Positions 11,506 through 20,884 of a stretch of DNA of 21,781 nucleotides are shown one piece after another. The stretch is from an uncultured Kouleothrix sp. (lineage in GTDB: Bacteria; Chloroflexota; Chloroflexia; Chloroflexales; Roseiflexaceae): NCBI GenBank assembly GCA_937858455.1, contig CALLYN010000829.1:1-21781 (forward strand), read 5' to 3'. The position numbers were made by a program, and so were the translations under genes. The number at the start of each line of letters is the position of its first letter. The first letter of the stretch is position 1. The notes under the pieces were generated by a model that saw only the letters and a program-made list of their open reading frames with translations, did no database searches and had not been told where the DNA came from.

Positions 11506-14500
11506 TTAGGCATACACATATTCGTAACAGACCAGCCGCAGGCTTTCGCGGGTCAGACCACTGCCAGCCTTTTTCTCGGGAGTTTCGTCGGATCGTGCGC
11601 CCTGATTCTGGTACAGCTCGCGGACAGTCTCGACGAGAACTGTGGCGTTATTTGAACTGCTGTACTCCTGCAGGGCTTTCTTTATTTGCTGCACCGATGC
11701 GCCCACCAGGGGCAATTTCAGAAATTTGCGTAGGTCGCGCAGCTCGGCACGGCTGAAATCGGGGCTGTTGAGGTGGCTTTGAAGAATCTGCGATGCTAGA
11801 ATTTGCTCTTCCGCAACGGGCTTGTTGACGACCGCTGCGACTTCCTGTTGCTCGACATCGCCCAGGATGCTCGCGATGATCTTCTCTTGCACCTCAAACA
11901 CATTGACCTCGTGATAGGGCGGCGGGAAGCGCGGTGTGTCGGGGCTGCAGGAGATGATCTGCATAATCTGGTAGCGGTTATCGATGATTTTTCGACTGTC
12001 CAGATCATAGTAGCGCCAGAAGTGCCCGCGCCCATGCTCGCGTGGTGCGGTGAAGTAGAAGAACATTCCTTTGATCTGCTGGCGTTCCAATCCTGAGTGA
12101 ATTCCATCATCGAGATCGGTCAGCCACTTGCGGGCGTTGCTGCTGAGCGCTTTTTGTAGCTCTGCCATCAGCGCTTCGCTGCTTGCCAGCTCGAGAAATG
12201 ACTCTTGCTCCTCGATCACCGTGGTATCTTCTTCCGCGATGCGCTTGAGCGTGTTAAAGTCGCGCGGCGTGACGACCTCGCCCAGGATGCTTGCGTCGAG
12301 AAATCCAGTCTGGTTGATCACGTCGATTTTGGCGGTCAGGCTGCGCACCAGTCCAAGCAATTCTTCGAGCGCACGCTCGGGAAACATGTTGAAGATGGTC
12401 AGCCGCTCAAACGTCGAGCCCAGGCGGTCGATCCGGCCGGCGCGCTGTACCATGCGCGTTGGGTTCCAGTGCAGGTCGTAGTTGATCAGGTAGCCGCAAT
12501 CTTGCAGGTTCTGGCCCTCCGATAGCACGTCGGTCGAGATCAGCAGGTCGACTTCTTGATCGGTGCCGGCAATGCCAGGGTGGCCGCCGGCAATCGGGGC
12601 GAACTGTTCGACGATCCGTGCGCGATCGCTGGTCTTCACGCTGCTGTCGATCCGTCGAATGTTCGGCTCGCCCATACGCGCGCGCCAGTCGGCATTGTCA
12701 TCGGCGGCTAATGCCTGGTACAGATAGCGCGCTGTGTCTTTGTAATAGGTGAAGATGATCGCTTTCTGGCCACGCAGGTCGGTTTCGAGCAAGCGCTTCA
12801 GCTGCTGGAGCTTTGCATCGTGCTGCGTGCTGATGTCTTTGATGTCGTGCCAGATGTCGGTCAGTGCGTCGATATCATCCTGAAGCGCACGGTGCAGCGC
12901 GCGCCGATCGTACTTCTCAACATCCAGGTGTGGCAACGTGTCGATAATCTGGCGCGCCAGCGTATTGTCGTCGATTGAGGAGGCGCGCGAGGTGGGTGTG
13001 GCGTCTTCGGCATCCTCGTCATCATTTTCCAGCAGCCGCATGGCGATCTGAAATGATGCGGAGTCCAGCAGTACGCCTTCTTGTAGGTACTCGGCAAAGG
13101 TTTTTACAAACTCAAGCGCGCGGCGGATGGTGATACGGAAGGCGTCGATGCTCGACTCCAGGCGCTTGAGGAAGCGACTCTTGAAGATGCCGACCAGCGC
13201 AGCTTGCCGGCCCAGCTCAAAGTCGTCGGTTTTCTGGTTGGCGCGCTTGTAGGTTTCGAGCGTGTAGTGCGGAAGCTGGAGCGCCTCGATCCGGCGAACG
13301 ATCTGCTTATAGAAGCCTTCATAGGTCGCCTGAAGGTCATATTCGATCGTCTGGAGCTGGCGCGTCGGCCAGGCGATCTTTTTCCCGCGAATCATCGCAT
13401 CGGGGTAGGCGCGGCGCACAAATTGGCGCGTGCGGCGGATCACCACTTCTTCGAGTAAGTTGAAAATGCGGATGCTGCCGGCCTCGATCGAGTCGCGGCG
13501 GGCAGCCAAAAAGTAGCTATACAGGTCGCCGATCCCGGCCGAGGCAAAGTAGGTGCGATCGTTGCCGGTGAACAGGTTGATCTGGTTGTAGAGATCGAAG
13601 ATATTGTTGTTGATCGGCGTGGCGGTGAGGAGTATGAGCTTCTTACGCCCGCCGCTACGCCCGCGCCGGCCATTGGCGGCGAGGATATTCTCAAGCTGCA
13701 TGTAGCGCCCGGCGCGCTTGTTCCGAAAGTTATGCGCCTCGTCGACCAGGATGACATCGGCGTCGGCGACATCGCGCATGTCGAAGTCTTCCGTGCCGAG
13801 GCGCTCCTGCGTGATAACGTAGGCCGAGATTGAGGCGCTGCGTAGTTCATGTTCCCACATGCGCTTGAGCGAGGCCGGGCAGATCACCAGCGCTTTTTGG
13901 CGCAGGTGGTAGGCGTAGTCTTCGAGCAGCTTCTTGCCGATCCAGGTTTTGCCGAGCCCGACCGAGTCGGCGACGATTACGCCATCGTACTGGGCCAGGA
14001 TGCGGCGCGCCTTGCGCACTGCGTCTTCCTGGAATTCGGCCAGCTCGACCGCCGAGCGCGTGGCGGGCTGGGCGAGGTCGTTGTCGAGGTCGTCTTTAAG
14101 GTACTCGTACAGCGCCTTCATGTAGACTTCGTAGGGGCTGTACTCGCGCCCACCAAACTTGGAGTTTTCCAGCAAGTCGATCAGCTGCTCTTTGTAGTCG
14201 ATCGCGCGCTGCCACTGCTCATCGTACCAGCGCGAGAGGTCCATGATCGCGCGTGCGCCGACCTCGCTTTTCAGCAGGCGCTGCTCTTCAGGCACAATAT
14301 CCAGATTGCGCCGTGCGAGCGCCTGGTGACCAACTGCGCCGCGAGCTTCAGGGTCGTCGATCTCGCTTTCGTCGAGCACGGTTTTGTGCACCAGGTTCAG
14401 CTCGCGGTTGCTGACCAGGCCCGGCCCGGTGAAGTTGCTGCTGCCGACGATTCCAACAATCGGGGTGAGATGATCGAAGAGGGTTTTTGGATTGTCGCTT

Positions 14501-14910
14501 CCGCCGTAGAACAGGTAGCACTTGGCGTGGAGAAACGCGCGGCGGCCTTTTTCGCCGGGGGCGTGCCCGGTGTACAGCCGCACCACGACGTCGTCGCGAC
14601 GTAGAAAGCGAACTAATTCCTCGACGAGCTGGAGCGTCGCGGCGTTGAATGGCTCGGCGTTCAGCTCGTGGCGCAGAAACGCGCCCGAGTCGGGGCGCAG
14701 GCCAATGTCTTCGCCTTCCAGCGGCTTGTCACCCAGCAGCAGGCGCAGGCGGCGCACACTGGGGAGTGTGGCGCGCAGTTGCTGGAAGCCGCGAATGCTA
14801 AAGTACGCCGTAGCGATATCGACCTGCTGGCCGGCTTGGCGCCGCAGCAGGTCGTTCAGAATATCCGCCAGGCGGGTTTCGATGTTGTCGATCACATAGG
14901 GGATATGCAT
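11506..14910 (-). CDS. PLD-like nuclease fused to SNF2-type superfamily II helicase
   Basis: In this 1134-residue protein the N-terminal PLD-like domain (about 1-180) has H128-x-K130 and GSSN (156-159), the two halves of an HKD half-site. This fold hydrolyses phosphodiester bonds. The helicase core follows: Walker A GLGKT (318-322), Walker B DEAH (390-393) and motif III TAT (429-431). The C-terminal RecA domain has STDVLSEGQNLQ (792-803) and motif VI QRAGRIDRLG (822-831). An acidic linker (about 629-650) splits the core, and a helical tail of some 270 residues may contact the methyltransferase. It is the last gene of the defence operon, 11 nt after the PIN stop, with no clear ribosome site, so coupled translation is likely. 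Probable role: ATP-driven DNA translocation with cleavage of unmodified invading DNA. Confidence 0.9.
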   Translation of the reverse strand: MHIPYVIDNIETRLADILNDLLRRQAGQQVDIATAYFSIRGFQQLRATLPSVRRLRLLLGDKPLEGEDIGLRPDSGAFLRHELNAEPFNAATLQLVEELVRFLRRDDVVVRLYTGHAPGEKGRRAFLHAKCYLFYGGSDNPKTLFDHLTPIVGIVGSSNFTGPGLVSNRELNLVHKTVLDESEIDDPEARGAVGHQALARRNLDIVPEEQRLLKSEVGARAIMDLSRWYDEQWQRAIDYKEQLIDLLENSKFGGREYSPYEVYMKALYEYLKDDLDNDLAQPATRSAVELAEFQEDAVRKARRILAQYDGVIVADSVGLGKTWIGKKLLEDYAYHLRQKALVICPASLKRMWEHELRSASISAYVITQERLGTEDFDMRDVADADVILVDEAHNFRNKRAGRYMQLENILAANGRRGRSGGRKKLILLTATPINNNIFDLYNQINLFTGNDRTYFASAGIGDLYSYFLAARRDSIEAGSIRIFNLLEEVVIRRTRQFVRRAYPDAMIRGKKIAWPTRQLQTIEYDLQATYEGFYKQIVRRIEALQLPHYTLETYKRANQKTDDFELGRQAALVGIFKSRFLKRLESSIDAFRITIRRALEFVKTFAEYLQEGVLLDSASFQIAMRLLENDDEDAEDATPTSRASSIDDNTLARQIIDTLPHLDVEKYDRRALHRALQDDIDALTDIWHDIKDISTQHDAKLQQLKRLLETDLRGQKAIIFTYYKDTARYLYQALAADDNADWRARMGEPNIRRIDSSVKTSDRARIVEQFAPIAGGHPGIAGTDQEVDLLISTDVLSEGQNLQDCGYLINYDLHWNPTRMVQRAGRIDRLGSTFERLTIFNMFPERALEELLGLVRSLTAKIDVINQTGFLDASILGEVVTPRDFNTLKRIAEEDTTVIEEQESFLELASSEALMAELQKALSSNARKWLTDLDDGIHSGLERQQIKGMFFYFTAPREHGRGHFWRYYDLDSRKIIDNRYQIMQIISCSPDTPRFPPPYHEVNVFEVQEKIIASILGDVEQQEVAAVVNKPVAEEQILASQILQSHLNSPDFSRAELRDLRKFLKLPLVGASVQQIKKALQEYSSSNNATVLVETVRELYQNQGARSDETPEKKAGSGLTRESLRLVCYEYVYA

Positions 14911-14921
14911 ATAAAGGACTG

Positions 14922-15383
14922 TTATGCTTTTGGCTGATCAAGCTCAAGTTCGCCAAGTATGATAACTGCGATCTCGGTAACGCGCTTGACTCCTGCGTCG
15001 TTAGTCAGAAACGCATCGCATCCTGCGGTTATCGCGGTCGCGATATGAATGGCATCCGGCGTGCGCAAATTGTATCGTGCGCGCAGATCCGCGGCGGCTT
15101 CTGCAATCTGTGCTGTGACCGGCAGGAGCTCGAAACCACCGCTGTGCAGCAAGATGTTACGGTATTCCTGTTCCAGCGTTGTGTTTGCCAGCTTGATGGG
15201 CTGTGGTAGCACCTCGGTGAGCACGATGACTGAGCTAACAGCCGTTATCGGAACCGCCTCAACCGTATCGATGACGACATCCATCTTGGCAATATACGTT
15301 GGGTTTTCTTCGACATAGTAGATCAGCGGCGCGGTCTCGATGTAGAGCCGATGAATACGAGCAAGCGCGGCAGTGATATTCAT
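14922..15383 (-). CDS. PIN-domain toxin (VapC-like)
   Basis: This 153-residue PIN-fold protein is a probable Mg-dependent RNase toxin. The four acidic positions can be placed: Glu16 in YIETAPLIYYVEE (most relatives have Asp, YxDT), Glu57 in VLTEVLP, Asp110 in RTPDAIHIATA and Asp129 in FLTND. I prefer the ATG at 15383-15381, because it overlaps the antitoxin stop as ATGA and has GGGA 9 nt upstream. The ATG at 15398 would add five residues but has no ribosome site. It sits between antitoxin and helicase genes, 11 nt before the latter. VapC-type toxins usually cut tRNA or rRNA; the target here is unknown. Confidence 0.87.
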   Translation of the reverse strand: MNITAALARIHRLYIETAPLIYYVEENPTYIAKMDVVIDTVEAVPITAVSSVIVLTEVLPQPIKLANTTLEQEYRNILLHSGGFELLPVTAQIAEAAADLRARYNLRTPDAIHIATAITAGCDAFLTNDAGVKRVTEIAVIILGELELDQPKA

Positions 15384-15601
15384 CGACGATTGTCCCATTC
15401 GTTGCGAAGTTGATCGACATACTCTTGGGCATCGATACCGGCCCAGATTTCTTTGCCTAATCCCCGCAGATCAGATAAACGATACTGGCGGGGCGATGGT
15501 GGCTCAGCTACGTCAAGCGTATCTACAAGCTGCTTCACCAGCTCCTTGCGCTCCTGGGCGCTCAGCGCTTTAGCTTGTTCCAGGATTTCGGCAACGGTCA
15601 C
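15380..15601 (-). CDS. Antitoxin-like protein paired with the PIN toxin
   Basis: This small 73-residue, charged, helical protein has a conserved-looking first half (AEILEQAKALSAQERKELVK) and a C-terminal GLGKEIWAGIDAQEYVDQLR segment. Similar short proteins sit directly upstream of PIN toxins in cyanobacteria and Chloroflexota, where the C-terminus is thought to block the toxin active site. The start is a GTG, strongly supported by GAGGAGG 6 nt upstream (15614-15608). Its TGA stop overlaps the toxin ATG. It starts 30 nt after the methyltransferase stop and has a possible promoter of its own. No clear DNA-binding fold such as AbrB or RHH is evident, so any autoregulation is inferred. Confidence 0.75.
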   Translation of the reverse strand: MTVAEILEQAKALSAQERKELVKQLVDTLDVAEPPSPRQYRLSDLRGLGKEIWAGIDAQEYVDQLRNEWDNRR

Positions 15602-15623
15602 GGCAGTCCTCCTCGGCGCCTGT

Positions 15624-15629
15624 ATTATA
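15624..15629 (-). promoter_or_regulatory. Possible internal -10 element and operator for the toxin-antitoxin pair
   Basis: A consensus TATAAT lies on the minus strand just upstream of the antitoxin, inside the small palindrome GTAT-A-ATAC. Transcription would begin around 15617, leaving a short leader that still includes the ribosome site. The only -35-like hexamer, TTGGGA, is 20 nt away, so the promoter is weakly supported. The palindrome over the -10 would suit antitoxin autorepression. Confidence 0.3.
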
Positions 15630-15631
15630 CG

Positions 15632-18600
15632 CTATACCAATCCCAGTATTCCCAATGCCCAGCTGCGCATCGCCTGTGCCTCTGTGCGCGTCAGCACTTC
15701 ATCGTGCGCGGCTTTGTTGCGAATATGCACCATCTGGTCGTCGCTCAGCAGCGCGACAATGCCGCTGTCTCCGAAAAAGGCCCGGTCTGCATCCACGATT
15801 ATGCGGCTGATGAAAGCGCGCAGCGCAGGTTCGGTGCTCTTGAAGATGATGCCAAACGCGCCGAGGGTTAATTCTTTTTCGCGGCGCATGAACTTTTTGA
15901 GGAAGTCGTTTTTGCAGTTTGCGTCGGTGCTGCCCGATTCCTCGCGGAACGGAATGAAGATACGCTGATAGATCGCTACCTCGACGGCCTTGGTGTAGGA
16001 AATCACACTGGTCGAAAAGTCCATCTGCTCGGGCAGCGTGCGCAAGTTGTAGTCGCCGGTGAGCAGGAAGGTCGGGGCGGCGGGTGGCAGCGCGCGCCAG
16101 CTCGGCAGATCACGGTCGAGCGTGTCTTCGTCCGATTTCGGCTCGACGCGCTCGAAGAAGCGCTCGACAGCCGGCAGGATGTTTTCGGCGATCTTGTCGA
16201 TCCTGGCTTCGTCGTCGGTGATCTGCTCGTCGGCCACGACCTGCGCTTTGGCATCGGCCAATTCTTGCTCGTAGCGCGGGCGCTCGATCAGCTCGATCTC
16301 GGCGTCGGTCAGGCCGTACAGCCGGTAGACGATCTTGTCGATCAGCGTATCGGTGCGCGCCAGCTCGCGCTTGATCGGCAGCAATGTTGCCAGCGAGCGC
16401 TCGTACTCGCGCTCGATCTCGCCCTCGGCATCGCTGAGCGAGACGGCAAAGCGGGTGCGGTTCTGGTGCAGACGGTAGAAGAACTCGCGCCAGGGTTGTT
16501 CGCGCTCGCCCTTCTGGTAGTCGCCCAGGTAGTTTTGCAGGATGCTCTTGCCGGTCAGGCTGTCGATGCTCGCCGCGCCATCCTTGCCGGGCCGGATCTT
16601 CAGCCGTTCTTCCAGCCAGCCGAGAAAGCGCTTGGTTTCAGTTTGCTTCTGCTTGTTAAGGTCGATCATGCGCTGCGCCAGGTGCGCCAGCAGGTCGTGG
16701 ACTACGTCGGTCTTGTCATCGTCGATCGCCGCCTGAGCCTGCGCGAGCATCGCCGCGTTGTCGCCGGCATCATAGCGCGCAATGGCAGACTGCGTGAGCC
16801 GCTCGCGCTCATCGGCGGGGGTGGTAGCTGATTTATTAGGGATGCAAAAAATATCTAATTCATAAGCATTTATATGATTCGTTGTACTAGTTGCTGAAAA
16901 ACGGAAGTTCCAAAGGCTAGAATTTAATAGCGTGAGTAAGGTATAAGGGTTATCTGTGTCAGCAAAGGGCAAATATCCGATAGTATCAAAACAGTATTCT
17001 CCAGGTGGAATAATTGTGGCAATTAATCTACGCCAATTGTCCACAGCAGCTCCTTTTTGAAATCCGATTCGATAATTATGATAATGTTGCCCTCGTTCGC
17101 TATTCCCGCGATCCTTCTTCCAAACAGAATCTAATAAATATCTAGGCTCACCTTGTTTTGGATCATCAAGTAACTCATATCGCTGGATATTTCCACCACG
17201 CAATATAATTGGTCCAGATGGTTGACTAGTAATGTATTTAGCGTTAGCGTAATTATCGCAAATTTCACCCGCATATATTTTTGCCTGGTTTCCAAGCAGA
17301 TCGCCTTTATCTGGATGCAGAAAATTCTCTAGAATATGCCACTCACCACTTGATACCAAAGGAATAGCGTGTTGGCCCGGAGTGAATGAATAAAGCTTTC
17401 CCTGCTCGGTTTCATATATGGGACTCTTCTCTAGGATAAATTTACCAGGATGAGTTCTAATTATCGTTTTGGTTTTCTGAGCTTTTGCCTTGCTAATTAC
17501 TAAGATACAGGTAGATTGCTTTGCTTCATGAAAGACACGATTATTTGGATCATCCTTTTGTGGAAATGCTTCGATTCGCTCAATGTGGAAATTATCAAAA
17601 AGACGTTTTCGAGTACCGAGTGAAAAACTGTCACTTAAAATTGTCAAAGGAATGATGAAGGTTCCAAATCCATCATTAGAGATCAGATGAGTTAATTTAA
17701 GCAGAAACAGACGATACAAATTTATACGACCGTTTTTGGTGTCGTTATATGGTGATGCTGAGGAAAAGTAAATATTTTCTTCTTCAGAATTGCCAGAGTA
17801 AAATTCCGATACTTCATCATACGGTGGATTCCCCACCACCGCGTCGAACCCGCCGCCCTCGCGCAGCTGCACATCCTGCCCGCCCGGCGTGCGAGGTGCG
17901 AAGAACACTTCGGGGAACTCCAGCTCCCAGTGGAAGAAGCGCTTGTCGCTGGCGGCCTGGAGCGCGGTTTGGGCGATCTGTGTCGCGGGTATTAAGCGGT
18001 TATCCAGAGGCACGGCAGGGTTTTGGAGCCATGCCTCGGTCTGTGGCTCTTGAAGAAATAGCCGCACATAGTCGGCTTTGGCCTTCTTGGCTGGCGCGTT
18101 GCCGAACCAGCGCGAGGTGTAGACATCCAGCAGGCGCTTGTAGGGCGCCAGGTGGTCGCTGGCGTCGCGGTAGGCCTCGGCGCTGCGGCGGGTCTGCTCC
18201 ACGGTGTTGTCGCTCAGGTAGGAAACCTGGCGCATCAGGTCGGTCGCCAGCATCACTCCAGCGAACTTGCTGCCGGCAAACATATCGAGCGTTTCGCCCG
18301 CGCCGGCCTCGATATAGTCTTGCACATCCTTGATGCGCGCGCCGATCAGGCTGTTGCCGTGCTTCAGGTGGTGGTCGAGAAAGCTCAGCGGCGCGCCGAG
18401 CGTAAACGCGTCCAGCCACAGCGAGACCTTGGCCAGCTCGACCGCCATTTCGTTCAGATCGACGCCATACACGCAGCGCTTGAGCACCGCGCGCTTGAGC
18501 AGCGCCACGCGCGTCAGCCGCTCGGCGTCGATCGTGACGTGCTGGCGCTCCATTTCGCCTAGAATGTCGGCGCGCGTCTGCTCGACAAACGCCCAGACCG

Positions 18601-20884
18601 GGTTCTCGCTCCAGCCGTTCAGAAAGCTAATCAGCCGGTTGCTGACATAGTCGACCACCTCGACCAGGAAGTGCCCGCTGCCCATGGCCGGGTCGAGGCA
18701 GCGGATATTCAGGCAGTCGTCGGCCAGCTGCTGCATGTCTAGGTTGTTCCAGTACACCGCAGGCGACTCGGATTTACCAGTGGATTTGCGGCGCGCCTCC
18801 ACCAGCTTGGCATAGTCGCGGAAACCCCTCTGGGCAGCGCGCAGCCGTGGGGCAAGCTCTTCAAACGTGCGGTCGAGCACCGGGCCGACCGTGTGCTGCA
18901 CAATGTACTTGACGATATAATCCGGCGTATAGTAGCTGCCGGTGGCCTTGCGCTCGCGCTTGTCGTTTTCGAGAAACACGTCGCCCTTCTCAAGCGTGGC
19001 CAGCGGCTTCTTGACCTTGGCGAACGGCTCGTAGACCTCCTTGCCCTTTTCTTTGGTAACTGCCAGCTTCTCGGCGGCGATGCGCAGCTTGAACTCAAGC
19101 AAGCCCTCGTAGATACTGCCAAGCTGGCGCACGCCCAGCGACTTGAAATCGATAAACACGAGCGCCTTGGTGCGCGTATCCACATCGCGGGCCAGCCGGT
19201 CGAGCCCGCGCGCCAGGAAGCGATCGGGAATGGCATAGGTATTCAGGAACTGGCCGCTCTCGGTCTGTGGGCTAAACAGGCCGCCGTTGTAGGTCGGCAT
19301 ATTCAGCTCGTCGGAGCCCTGGTCGATCACGGCGAACAATGCCGCCAGCCGCTCATACAGCGCGGTCGAGCTTTGGGAATAGCGCTTGTTCAGCTTGTCG
19401 GCCGACTCGTCGAGCAATATACCGCCGGCAGCGGCGATCTCGCCTTTCATGCGGCGCAGGCTCCGCTCGCGGTAGCCGTTGGCCTCGTTCACCGGCAACA
19501 GCTCCAGGCTCTCGGCGTACAGCAAGAACATCAGGCGATACAGAAAGGTCATCGTGCCCGAGAACACCTCTGCCAGCTCTGCGTCACCGAGCTTGCCAGC
19601 GTCCTTCCCGCGCATGTCGGCAATGAAGCCCTTGGCAAACTGCGGAAAGATCTCGACGAACACGCGGTCCTTCAGGCGGTCGCCAAGCTCCTTGGCGTAG
19701 TCGGCCGAGTTCTTCAGCAGCGCGTCGAGGAAGCCAGGGAACGACTGCCGGCGGAACAGCAGCCACCAATACTTGAGTGCCGTGGGCTGATCGCTAACGG
19801 CGAGCGCCTCCTCCAGATCGACCTCGTAGTAATTGGTGGCCTTGTTGCTGGCAGTTGCGGAGTACAGGCGCCACAGCTTGCCATTGGTGACGATCACCCA
19901 TGGGGCGACCTGCGCCTCCAGCAAGCTCACCACCAATGCGCCGGGGATCTCGTCGGGCGTCTCGCGGTCGCGCGTGGTGTCGACATCGTCGAGGTTGCGG
20001 TTCCAGACATACGTCAGCGCGGCCGCGAGGGGTTTATCAAGCTGGCCAGGCGCATACAGCAGGTAGTCGGGCGTCTCGGCCGGCGAGCCGCCTGGTTTCT
20101 GGGCAACGTAGGCAAAGCCGAGCTGCTGAAACAGCGGCTCATACAGCTTGCCGCGAATAGCCTGCTCGGGCTGGCCGGTGAAGGTTTTCCGCGCGGACGA
20201 GAGATGGCCAAGCACCTTCATACCGATAGGGTGCACATCCTCATCCCATTCTGGCGTGATCTTTTTGTCTGCCAGGCGTTGCTTCAGGTAGTAATCCGAG
20301 AACAGTGCGCGGTTGTTGAAGTATTCCTCGCTCCACTCGGCAAGCATGTACGCGGAGCGCAGCTTCTCCCACTGGTAGGCGGCATCTTCTTCGGTAAACG
20401 TGAAGCGCTTCAGCACGCGCAGCGCGACCGGCTCGGGGTTCAAACGATTCACAGTCAGCGGCACCGGCCGGACGACCAACTTCAGCGGCTGAAATTTGCT
20501 GCGGCTGCGCTCCTCGCTCTTCTGGAGCATCACAAACTCAAGCTGCTCGTAGTCCTTGGTCAGCACCAGCAGCGCGCTCTCAGGCCGGTCGCGGAACCGC
20601 CGCGCGATATCATTGCGCAGCTTGGCCGTTACCGAGCGCACTTCGAGGAGGTAGATGGTAATATCGCCATCTTCCGGGTCGTGGCCAATCAGCTCAATTC
20701 TGTGAATCTGCTGGCGGAGATCGGCGCTGCCCAACCCGAGCACGGCGTAATCAGAAATATTGACGCGACTGTCGACATCGTAGCGGAGCTTCGCGAAGAA
20801 GTGAGCGATTTCGTCGGCATTCTCAAGTTGCCGGATATCGTTGGTGGTAAGCTCCACGTCGTTGACGCGCATGTCGTTCTGCAT
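15632..20884 (-). CDS. Eco57I/type IIG-like N6-adenine DNA methyltransferase with specificity domain and HEPN-like C-terminus
   Basis: This 1750-residue protein should methylate adenine with S-adenosylmethionine and choose the DNA site for the operon's restriction activity. Residues 1-240 form an uncharacterised N-terminal region. Residues 245-345 look like a restriction-endonuclease fold (TPDYLLY, TNGKLWRLY) but lack a visible E-x-K. The methyltransferase core has TGSYYTP (648-654), motif I DPAMGSGHF (731-739), VDLNEMAVELAKVSLWL (808-824) and motif IV NPPY (1019-1022). Residues about 1023-1352 are the target-recognition region, encoded by AT-rich DNA. A helical segment (about 1355-1590) leads to a C-terminal domain (about 1620-1750) with R1722-N-K-A-A-H1727. 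The length exceeds that of usual type IIG enzymes (about 900-1200). GAGG 5 nt before the ATG supports the start. It is first in the operon. Confidence 0.9.
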   Translation of the reverse strand: MQNDMRVNDVELTTNDIRQLENADEIAHFFAKLRYDVDSRVNISDYAVLGLGSADLRQQIHRIELIGHDPEDGDITIYLLEVRSVTAKLRNDIARRFRDRPESALLVLTKDYEQLEFVMLQKSEERSRSKFQPLKLVVRPVPLTVNRLNPEPVALRVLKRFTFTEEDAAYQWEKLRSAYMLAEWSEEYFNNRALFSDYYLKQRLADKKITPEWDEDVHPIGMKVLGHLSSARKTFTGQPEQAIRGKLYEPLFQQLGFAYVAQKPGGSPAETPDYLLYAPGQLDKPLAAALTYVWNRNLDDVDTTRDRETPDEIPGALVVSLLEAQVAPWVIVTNGKLWRLYSATASNKATNYYEVDLEEALAVSDQPTALKYWWLLFRRQSFPGFLDALLKNSADYAKELGDRLKDRVFVEIFPQFAKGFIADMRGKDAGKLGDAELAEVFSGTMTFLYRLMFLLYAESLELLPVNEANGYRERSLRRMKGEIAAAGGILLDESADKLNKRYSQSSTALYERLAALFAVIDQGSDELNMPTYNGGLFSPQTESGQFLNTYAIPDRFLARGLDRLARDVDTRTKALVFIDFKSLGVRQLGSIYEGLLEFKLRIAAEKLAVTKEKGKEVYEPFAKVKKPLATLEKGDVFLENDKRERKATGSYYTPDYIVKYIVQHTVGPVLDRTFEELAPRLRAAQRGFRDYAKLVEARRKSTGKSESPAVYWNNLDMQQLADDCLNIRCLDPAMGSGHFLVEVVDYVSNRLISFLNGWSENPVWAFVEQTRADILGEMERQHVTIDAERLTRVALLKRAVLKRCVYGVDLNEMAVELAKVSLWLDAFTLGAPLSFLDHHLKHGNSLIGARIKDVQDYIEAGAGETLDMFAGSKFAGVMLATDLMRQVSYLSDNTVEQTRRSAEAYRDASDHLAPYKRLLDVYTSRWFGNAPAKKAKADYVRLFLQEPQTEAWLQNPAVPLDNRLIPATQIAQTALQAASDKRFFHWELEFPEVFFAPRTPGGQDVQLREGGGFDAVVGNPPYDEVSEFYSGNSEEENIYFSSASPYNDTKNGRINLYRLFLLKLTHLISNDGFGTFIIPLTILSDSFSLGTRKRLFDNFHIERIEAFPQKDDPNNRVFHEAKQSTCILVISKAKAQKTKTIIRTHPGKFILEKSPIYETEQGKLYSFTPGQHAIPLVSSGEWHILENFLHPDKGDLLGNQAKIYAGEICDNYANAKYITSQPSGPIILRGGNIQRYELLDDPKQGEPRYLLDSVWKKDRGNSERGQHYHNYRIGFQKGAAVDNWRRLIATIIPPGEYCFDTIGYLPFADTDNPYTLLTLLNSSLWNFRFSATSTTNHINAYELDIFCIPNKSATTPADERERLTQSAIARYDAGDNAAMLAQAQAAIDDDKTDVVHDLLAHLAQRMIDLNKQKQTETKRFLGWLEERLKIRPGKDGAASIDSLTGKSILQNYLGDYQKGEREQPWREFFYRLHQNRTRFAVSLSDAEGEIEREYERSLATLLPIKRELARTDTLIDKIVYRLYGLTDAEIELIERPRYEQELADAKAQVVADEQITDDEARIDKIAENILPAVERFFERVEPKSDEDTLDRDLPSWRALPPAAPTFLLTGDYNLRTLPEQMDFSTSVISYTKAVEVAIYQRIFIPFREESGSTDANCKNDFLKKFMRREKELTLGAFGIIFKSTEPALRAFISRIIVDADRAFFGDSGIVALLSDDQMVHIRNKAAHDEVLTRTEAQAMRSWALGILGLV
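16826..17820 (-). other. AT-rich target-recognition cassette inside the methyltransferase gene
   Basis: Sample 60-nt stretches at 16861 and 17461 contain 22 and 21 G/C bases. Stretches on either side, at 16441 and 18421, contain 36 and 37. The shift begins directly after the codons for NPPY and ends near residue 1352, which matches the specificity domain of this enzyme class. The reading frame stays open throughout. This suggests the specificity module was exchanged by recombination from a low-GC donor while the catalytic core stayed native. Confidence 0.75.

Follow-up and report, generated by a model that had tools for sequence, protein, structure and literature searches.

Defence genes nested inside restriction operons have been described in several settings. 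In the RRDM island of EPEC, DarTG2 is embedded between hsdS and hsdR; the authors, in the part of their report drawn on here, call the hsdS–hsdR site a potential recombination hotspot, and another gene pair occupies it in four genomes (PMC12255303). PrrC, an RNase toxin, is encoded within the EcoprrI restriction operon (PMC12707154, PMC3710099, as excerpted), and BREX and DUF499-centred BR loci are reported, in the sections considered here, to carry the backup effectors PIN, HEPN, Schlafen and OLD embedded in their core (PMC12839542). The locus that we analysed invites comparison with all of these. We think it probable, from its sequence and that of its relatives, that it is a DISARM/BREX-related two-gene restriction operon with a cargo pocket inside it, and that the VapBC-type pair now in that pocket is a swappable passenger.

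The stretch under study (the window, 21,781 nt) corresponds to one entire contig of G000, an incomplete genome (71.5%) of 1123 contigs and 5.14 Mb. On its minus strand the open reading frames (ORFs) give the order methyltransferase, antitoxin, PIN toxin, PLD–SNF2 helicase: an adenine DNA methyltransferase of DrmMI or type IIG-like character (15632–20884; 1750 aa), a predicted antitoxin with a GTG start (15380–15601; 73 aa), a VapC-like PIN-domain ORF (14922–15398; 158 aa) and a PLD nuclease fused to an SNF2-type helicase (11506–14910; 1134 aa). The methyltransferase and antitoxin genes are separated by 30 nt (15602–15631), with GAGGAGG ahead of the antitoxin GTG, and the PIN and helicase genes by 11 nt (14911–14921). 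The antitoxin and PIN genes share an ATGA overlap if the PIN start is at 15383, and overlap by 19 nt if it is at 15398; we favour 15383 because the five-residue N-terminal extension is absent from 104 of 121 aligned PIN rows. The initial annotation had proposed a tight four-gene minus-strand unit, and the ORFs and all three spacings (30 nt, ATGA, 11 nt) confirm it; its naming of the methyltransferase, PIN and PLD-helicase genes was likewise borne out by Pfam, each above cut-off. Between methyltransferase and helicase, a consensus scan gave no terminator-like site on the minus strand, nor were repeats of at least 12 nt reported in the window's junction. A single transcript across the four genes is plausible on this layout. 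The 30-nt gap contains an exact TATAAT at 15629–15624 on the minus strand, a motif seen five times in the whole window against 2.06 expected; a sigma-70 scan reported no promoter in the gap. Downstream of the operon lies a GDP-mannose dehydratase gene, identified by Pfam, and upstream the contig ends only 0.9 kb beyond the methyltransferase gene.

The helicase matched Helicase_C (69.1 bits), SNF2 (37.4) and PLDc_2 (33.3) in Pfam, all above cut-off. In PADLOC it scored 218 bits with C3a139, 'HKD+Snf2', and 128 bits with DrmD, its DrmA-model score of 83 bits lying below its own DrmD score; against the NCBIfam model DISARM_DrmD it reached 165.8 bits, short of the cut-off of 610, and it is therefore not assigned to DrmD. 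The PLD residues H128, K130, N159 and E170, the GKT motif and the D, E and H of the DEAH box are invariant in all 53 helicase relatives, and the protein therefore looks active by sequence. The best helicase loci came from Anaerolineae and other Chloroflexota MAGs. Viral contigs yielded eight distant helicase loci (26–31% identity) and no PIN locus, and a plasmid search returned 68 records, all below 60% identity. Related genes adjoin or lie near the helicase on its downstream side in four loci (L061, L066, L137 and L139); the three that were scanned (L061, L066 and L139) all have an AAA_5 ATPase domain, accompanied in L061 and L139 by Mrr_N.

The methyltransferase matched Eco57I (85.7 bits) and N6_Mtase (47.3 bits) above cut-off. 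Its top PADLOC model was DrmMI, whose 301-bit match spans part of the protein, and the top type IIG model scored 212. A G+C scan revealed a patch at 16800–17850 (minus strand; residues ∼1012–1361, the target-recognition part) in which G+C drops sharply to 35–41%, against 60–68% on either side, and over the recognition part tblastn identity with close relatives is low or partial. Probably this part has been exchanged by recombination, thereby swapping specificity. Homologous genes of ∼1020–1180 aa lie upstream of the methyltransferase in five Ktedonobacteria loci with an empty junction (L045, L046, L049, L051 and L054); the two that were scanned, from L046 and L051, are NACHT-HEAT proteins.

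The methyltransferase ends in an additional domain (residues 1569–1750; 15635–16180, minus strand). This add-on of ∼180 residues is present in 8 of 17 aligned methyltransferases, which form the window's clade, and the remaining 9 lack it; in a search within proteins of similar length, all 57 add-on homologues listed also had an Eco57I domain. It contains the motif RNKAAH at 1722–1727, in agreement with the HEPN RX4-6H motif, and R1722, N1723, A1725 and H1727 (fragment positions R178, N179, A181 and H183) do not vary across a 58-row alignment. RNxxxH with these invariant R, N, A and H columns is the pattern of HEPN RNases. Four of six add-on fragments gave weak Pfam matches to HEPN_Swt1 (E 0.059–0.068) or DUF4145 (E 0.11–0.21); neither the window's own copy nor that of L037 gave a Pfam HEPN match. 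Aligned by hhalign with 25 Swt1-type HEPN rows, the add-on scored a probability of 56% (E 1.1e-4), as compared with at most 0.9% for 16 controls (five unrelated families, ten column shuffles and one reversal). The search against solved structures gave two weak matches, neither to a HEPN chain. The add-on is thus a probable HEPN ribonuclease domain. A 2013 survey, which includes a motif table of HEPN proteins, states in the sections used here that restriction-system HEPN domains fuse to nucleases, helicases and ATPases and not to methylases, and its table notes that one HEPN family is occasionally fused to a methylase (PMC3710099). If real, a DNA methyltransferase would be an unusual carrier for a HEPN-type RNase, and we found no HEPN-tailed methyltransferase of this kind in a literature that was mostly open access. 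Some methyltransferases with the putative HEPN tail (P0147, P0152 and P0155) also carry a DUF559 nuclease domain; DUF559 occurs as separate cargo in the junction of L135.

The PIN ORF matched Pfam PIN at 60.7 bits, above cut-off, and retains its acidic residues in an alignment of 121 rows (E62 and D134 in all 121, D115 in 119, and either E or D at E21 in 120). Its sole match among solved structures was a VapC (E 0.0044), and 746 PIN homologues were found at E ≤ 1e-3. The antitoxin had no Pfam match at E 0.001, and its two family matches, TIGR02574 (E 8.8e-4) and Unstab_antitox (E 0.0036), are weak and below cut-off. An antitoxin homologue lies immediately upstream of PIN in nine of the ten other PIN places read, three of which have an in-frame stop in the PIN match. 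This recurrence, with the number of PIN homologues, speaks against a chance arrangement of ORFs. As in VapBC pairs generally, a small upstream antitoxin overlaps a PIN toxin in which four acidic residues are conserved; the differences here are the weak antitoxin family match and the placement of the pair inside another operon. By sequence, then, the genes are a VapBC-type pair with predicted toxin and antitoxin activity, set with operon-like spacing in a restriction-like operon, much as the initial annotation had it.

That annotation went further, suggesting that failure of the restriction proteins, or their inhibition by a phage, could lead to loss of the labile antitoxin and so trigger abortive infection, or equally that the pair could be an addiction module. 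On the first view the toxin would be wired into the operon: it would be kept off by the restriction proteins or by being expressed alongside them, and a phage that blocked restriction would cause the antitoxin to be lost and allow PIN to stop the cell. The operon-like spacing and the precedent of PrrC in EcoprrI, as far as the excerpted papers describe it (PMC12707154, PMC3710099), speak for such an arrangement. The annotation would count it as refuted if most related methyltransferase/PLD-helicase pairs lacked the toxin-antitoxin genes. We applied this to the best 80 of 547 confirmed helicase loci and 18 stretches from further relatives, 98 in all. No PIN homologue was detected by tblastn (E 1e-3) in these 98 loci, at least 20 of which have < 1.5 kb before the helicase, and the antitoxin gave one weak match, in L036, again with the junction outside the sequence in at least 20 loci. 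When 400 genomes of the phylum were searched, close PIN kin (E ≤ 1e-30) turned up in 10, one of them the window's own genome. In three genomes whose helicases are 70–71% identical to the window's (G027, G036 and G042), the nearest PIN lay either on a different contig or at a distance of 0.7 Mb, and no methyltransferase or helicase was found within ∼1.5 kb on each side of the ten other PIN places. Because close PIN kin occur away from the operon, with the antitoxin 5′ in nine of ten places, we regard the pair as of a mobile, free-standing kind; occurring free with its own antitoxin, it should need no restriction partner. The pair as a fixed, wired-in part is therefore not borne out, and the exact TATAAT, a possible −10 box of its own, also argues against one. 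Taken with the junction data below, we consider a toxin held in check by the restriction proteins unlikely.

The pair might instead be conserved within a narrow clade, as a component of the operons with the HEPN-type methyltransferase. Two homologues of the PIN protein, at 71% and 68% identity, coincide with HEPN-clade methyltransferases in source and contig size (14349 and 8650 nt), a weak hint, and L036 has, besides its antitoxin-like stretch, a PIN-like ORF recognized by eye. A third coincidence, at 3218 nt, was rejected as one contig since both genes do not fit. Against a clade component, the eight members with readable junctions comprise one intact pair, one remnant and six with other cargo or none, which makes it quite improbable.

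What occupies this position in relatives was determined by a census of junctions. Among 93 non-duplicate helicase loci, 53 had a methyltransferase followed by the helicase, counting three (L094, L097 and L100) whose upstream gene clusters with methyltransferases. The other 40 were dropped, 20 of them with < 1.5 kb before the helicase, and many of the loci are from fragmentary MAGs; on a looser check, a methyltransferase, or the end of one, does lie upstream of the helicase in two dropped loci, L085 and L042, with intervening stretches of 4.0 and 1.6 kb. Since some dropped loci with at least 5 kb upstream show no methyltransferase, the helicase can occur alone. Junction sizes fell into three groups: ≤ 100 nt in 14 loci, 167–236 nt in 3 and > 300 nt in 36. 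That the junction is empty in 14 of 53 operons counts against restriction proteins that have a toxin to restrain.

The filled junctions held a wide range of toxin-antitoxin and defence genes. Pfam PIN cargo was present in three, the window, L052 and L060; XRE-M78 with DUF4411, a PIN-like family, in five, namely L041, L086, L094 and L100 by scan and L106 by BLAST; and AbiEi/AbiEii in L039 and L040, the L040 junction also containing an AAA and subtilase combination, IetAS (IetA/IetS). Other junctions contained Fic in reverse orientation (L037), Piwi (Argonaute, pAgo class II) with two REase-type genes (L035), HEC-01A with DUF4276 (L142), an OLD-TOPRIM protein (OLD-type ATPase; L043), Schlafen (L144), DUF559 (L135), and a transposase with a PIN-like remnant, its PIN-like ORF seen by eye (L036). 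DUF2283 and DUF4258, which form a toxin-antitoxin pair, were found twice each among junction ORFs, and it was by eye that they were assigned to L068 and L078; the cargo labels of L145, L149, L038, L072 and L036 are wholly or partly by eye as well. Known systems recognized by PADLOC among the cargo were pAgo class II, IetA/IetS, HEC-01A and PDC-M19A. Other toxin pairs are arranged much as in the window, with operon-like spacing in independent cases: L052 (50 nt, 1-nt overlap, 10 nt), L060 (24 nt, 4-nt overlap, 38 nt) and L086 (1 nt, 4-nt overlap, 9 nt), which counts in favour of a wired-in toxin. In L034 a 483-aa orphan ORF (L034:8550–10001) fits exactly between methyltransferase and helicase and has no Pfam or PADLOC match; orphan junction genes of this type are candidate defence genes.

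On the helicase tree, junction contents change at least 12 times when scored as cargo or empty, and at least 8 times when scored by our toxin-antitoxin label, which 12 rows bear. Contents vary even between near relatives: L134 and L136 are empty and L135 has DUF559, and L034, L035 and L036 have the orphan, the Argonaute and the transposase with PIN-like remnant, respectively. The PIN pair as a conserved subunit is accordingly rejected, having no PIN homologue by tblastn in the 98 loci compared (at least 20 with < 1.5 kb before the helicase), being free elsewhere, and being part of a content that varies on this tree. The pair, then, is not kept here across relatives, and it is the position that is reused, by unrelated toxin-antitoxin and defence modules. 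The toxin does lie between two large genes, as first noted; the description of a split operon is better replaced by that of a two-gene operon with a cargo pocket.

We then asked whether the junctions differ from their surroundings. Leaving out four near-duplicate loci, 75 of 86 junction ORFs of at least 100 aa were co-directional with the operon, versus 85 of 166 in flanks within 3.5 kb (Fisher p 8e-9). A hand-filtered Pfam scan of 80 of 119 junction ORFs, with 25 of 81 families listed, gave AAA_21 (6), AAA_15 (6), DUF4411 (4), M78 (4), PIN (3), AbiEi_4 (3) and AbiEii (2). In the flanks (90 of 202 ORFs scanned), no toxin-antitoxin family was among the eight families with at least two members; the flank families listed are 25 of 117, so that single toxin-antitoxin genes are undercounted, and one Gp49 was present. 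In 32 genomes, 282 PIN genes occurred in ∼169.5 Mb, from which 0.10 would be expected in 58.5 kb of junctions; three were observed, or two without the window, which was chosen for its pair, and for AbiEii two were observed with 0.012 expected, both expectations being genome means, and toxin-antitoxin density being higher in defence islands. On this partial control, of flank scan and co-direction, we reject the junction as ordinary island sequence. Since contents differ between very close rows and the flanks are poorer, the pocket turns over faster than the core and is enriched beyond the flanks examined.

A further reading confines the pair to addiction or hitch-hiking: it would stabilize the operon, or would have landed at a tolerated site, and would have no role in phage defence. 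This is a serious possibility, although we think it less likely than not. The pair is free-standing in other genomes, and transposases occur among junction ORFs (IS200-like Y1_Tnp, three ORFs; ISL3, one ORF), so some junction fillings are plain mobile DNA. On the other hand, junction cargo is enriched in genes for defence and toxins and runs in the direction of the operon, and neither is true of the flanks examined; this suggests that selection acts on which fillings are retained. A REP-transposase-like ORF family is common to L036, L044 and L078, the L036 copy being without a Pfam match, and G+C-rich repeats occur in two junctions (L134:4957–5034 and L135:4913–5731). Such repeats, together with the IS200-like and REP-transposase-like ORFs, are a possible route for cargo exchange.

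We therefore return to a cargo pocket with a swappable passenger as the best explanation. Its two-gene core, the pocket, the turnover of the pocket and the free-standing kin of the pair elsewhere can be read directly from sequence comparison. The core would comprise a methyltransferase with an exchangeable recognition part and a PLD nuclease on an SNF2 motor; judged from the families involved, the methyltransferase would modify self DNA and the helicase-nuclease would attack unmodified DNA. The pocket between the core genes would have repeatedly gained, lost and regained its contents, namely toxin-antitoxin pairs and complete defence systems that mostly run with the operon. Its present passenger, the VapBC-type pair, would be expressed from the operon promoter and perhaps also from a promoter of its own. 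The pair, probably co-expressed with the core, may add a second layer of defence by stopping growth, may stabilize the island by addiction, or may do both, without being a core subunit. We favour an autonomous second layer or stabilizer over a wired sensor, because a pair that brings its own antitoxin has no need of the restriction proteins. A more elaborate scheme, in which the core serves as a chassis for restriction and offers a socket for effectors, would have the HEPN RNase sense loss or inhibition of modification and the state of the core license whichever swappable junction effector is expressed from the same promoter; we regard it as very improbable. With a swappable passenger, what seemed a one-off nested toxin becomes a test bed: cargo has been swapped naturally many times at a single site of one core operon, and since the variants include empty junction copies, cargo function can be compared on a constant background.

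How does this operon compare with the described systems? It resembles type-2 BR in having an HKD(PLD)–Swi2/Snf2 helicase together with an N6-methyltransferase (PMC12839542). It appears to differ in having no conserved DUF499 or DUF3780 partner among the 57 loci clustered, in which no third gene family, besides methyltransferase and helicase, was common to more than six; neither DUF499 ATPase nor DUF3780 was among the window proteins scanned with Pfam, on a contig that stops 0.9 kb upstream of the methyltransferase. With DISARM class 1 and ARMADA, as the extracts used describe them (PMC9142583, PMC12458937), it shares an SNF2 helicase, a PLD nuclease and, to judge by the top PADLOC model, a DrmMI-like methyltransferase; here, however, PLD is fused to the helicase, and no separate DrmA or DrmB gene was found among the nine window proteins compared with Pfam and the six compared with PADLOC, given the same upstream limit. 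The core is accordingly placed near DISARM and BR and assigned in full to neither. PrrC also is an RNase toxin within a restriction operon, but in the accounts cited it is silenced by the restriction complex (PMC12707154, PMC3710099), whereas the VapBC pair has its own antitoxin. The RRDM island is similar in that its restriction operon has toxin-antitoxin genes nested where modification genes give way to cleavage genes; in the portion of the report drawn on here it consists of type I hsdMSR with DarTG2 (PMC12255303), in contrast to the single-chain methyltransferase, PLD–SNF2 helicase and VapBC pair of our locus. A methyltransferase–helicase junction pocket of the present kind was not found in print, the literature covered being mostly open access. 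With DarTG2, PrrC and the embedded effectors of BREX and BR already published, the principle of nesting is known, and what would be new here is the pocket in a DISARM/BR-related two-gene core.
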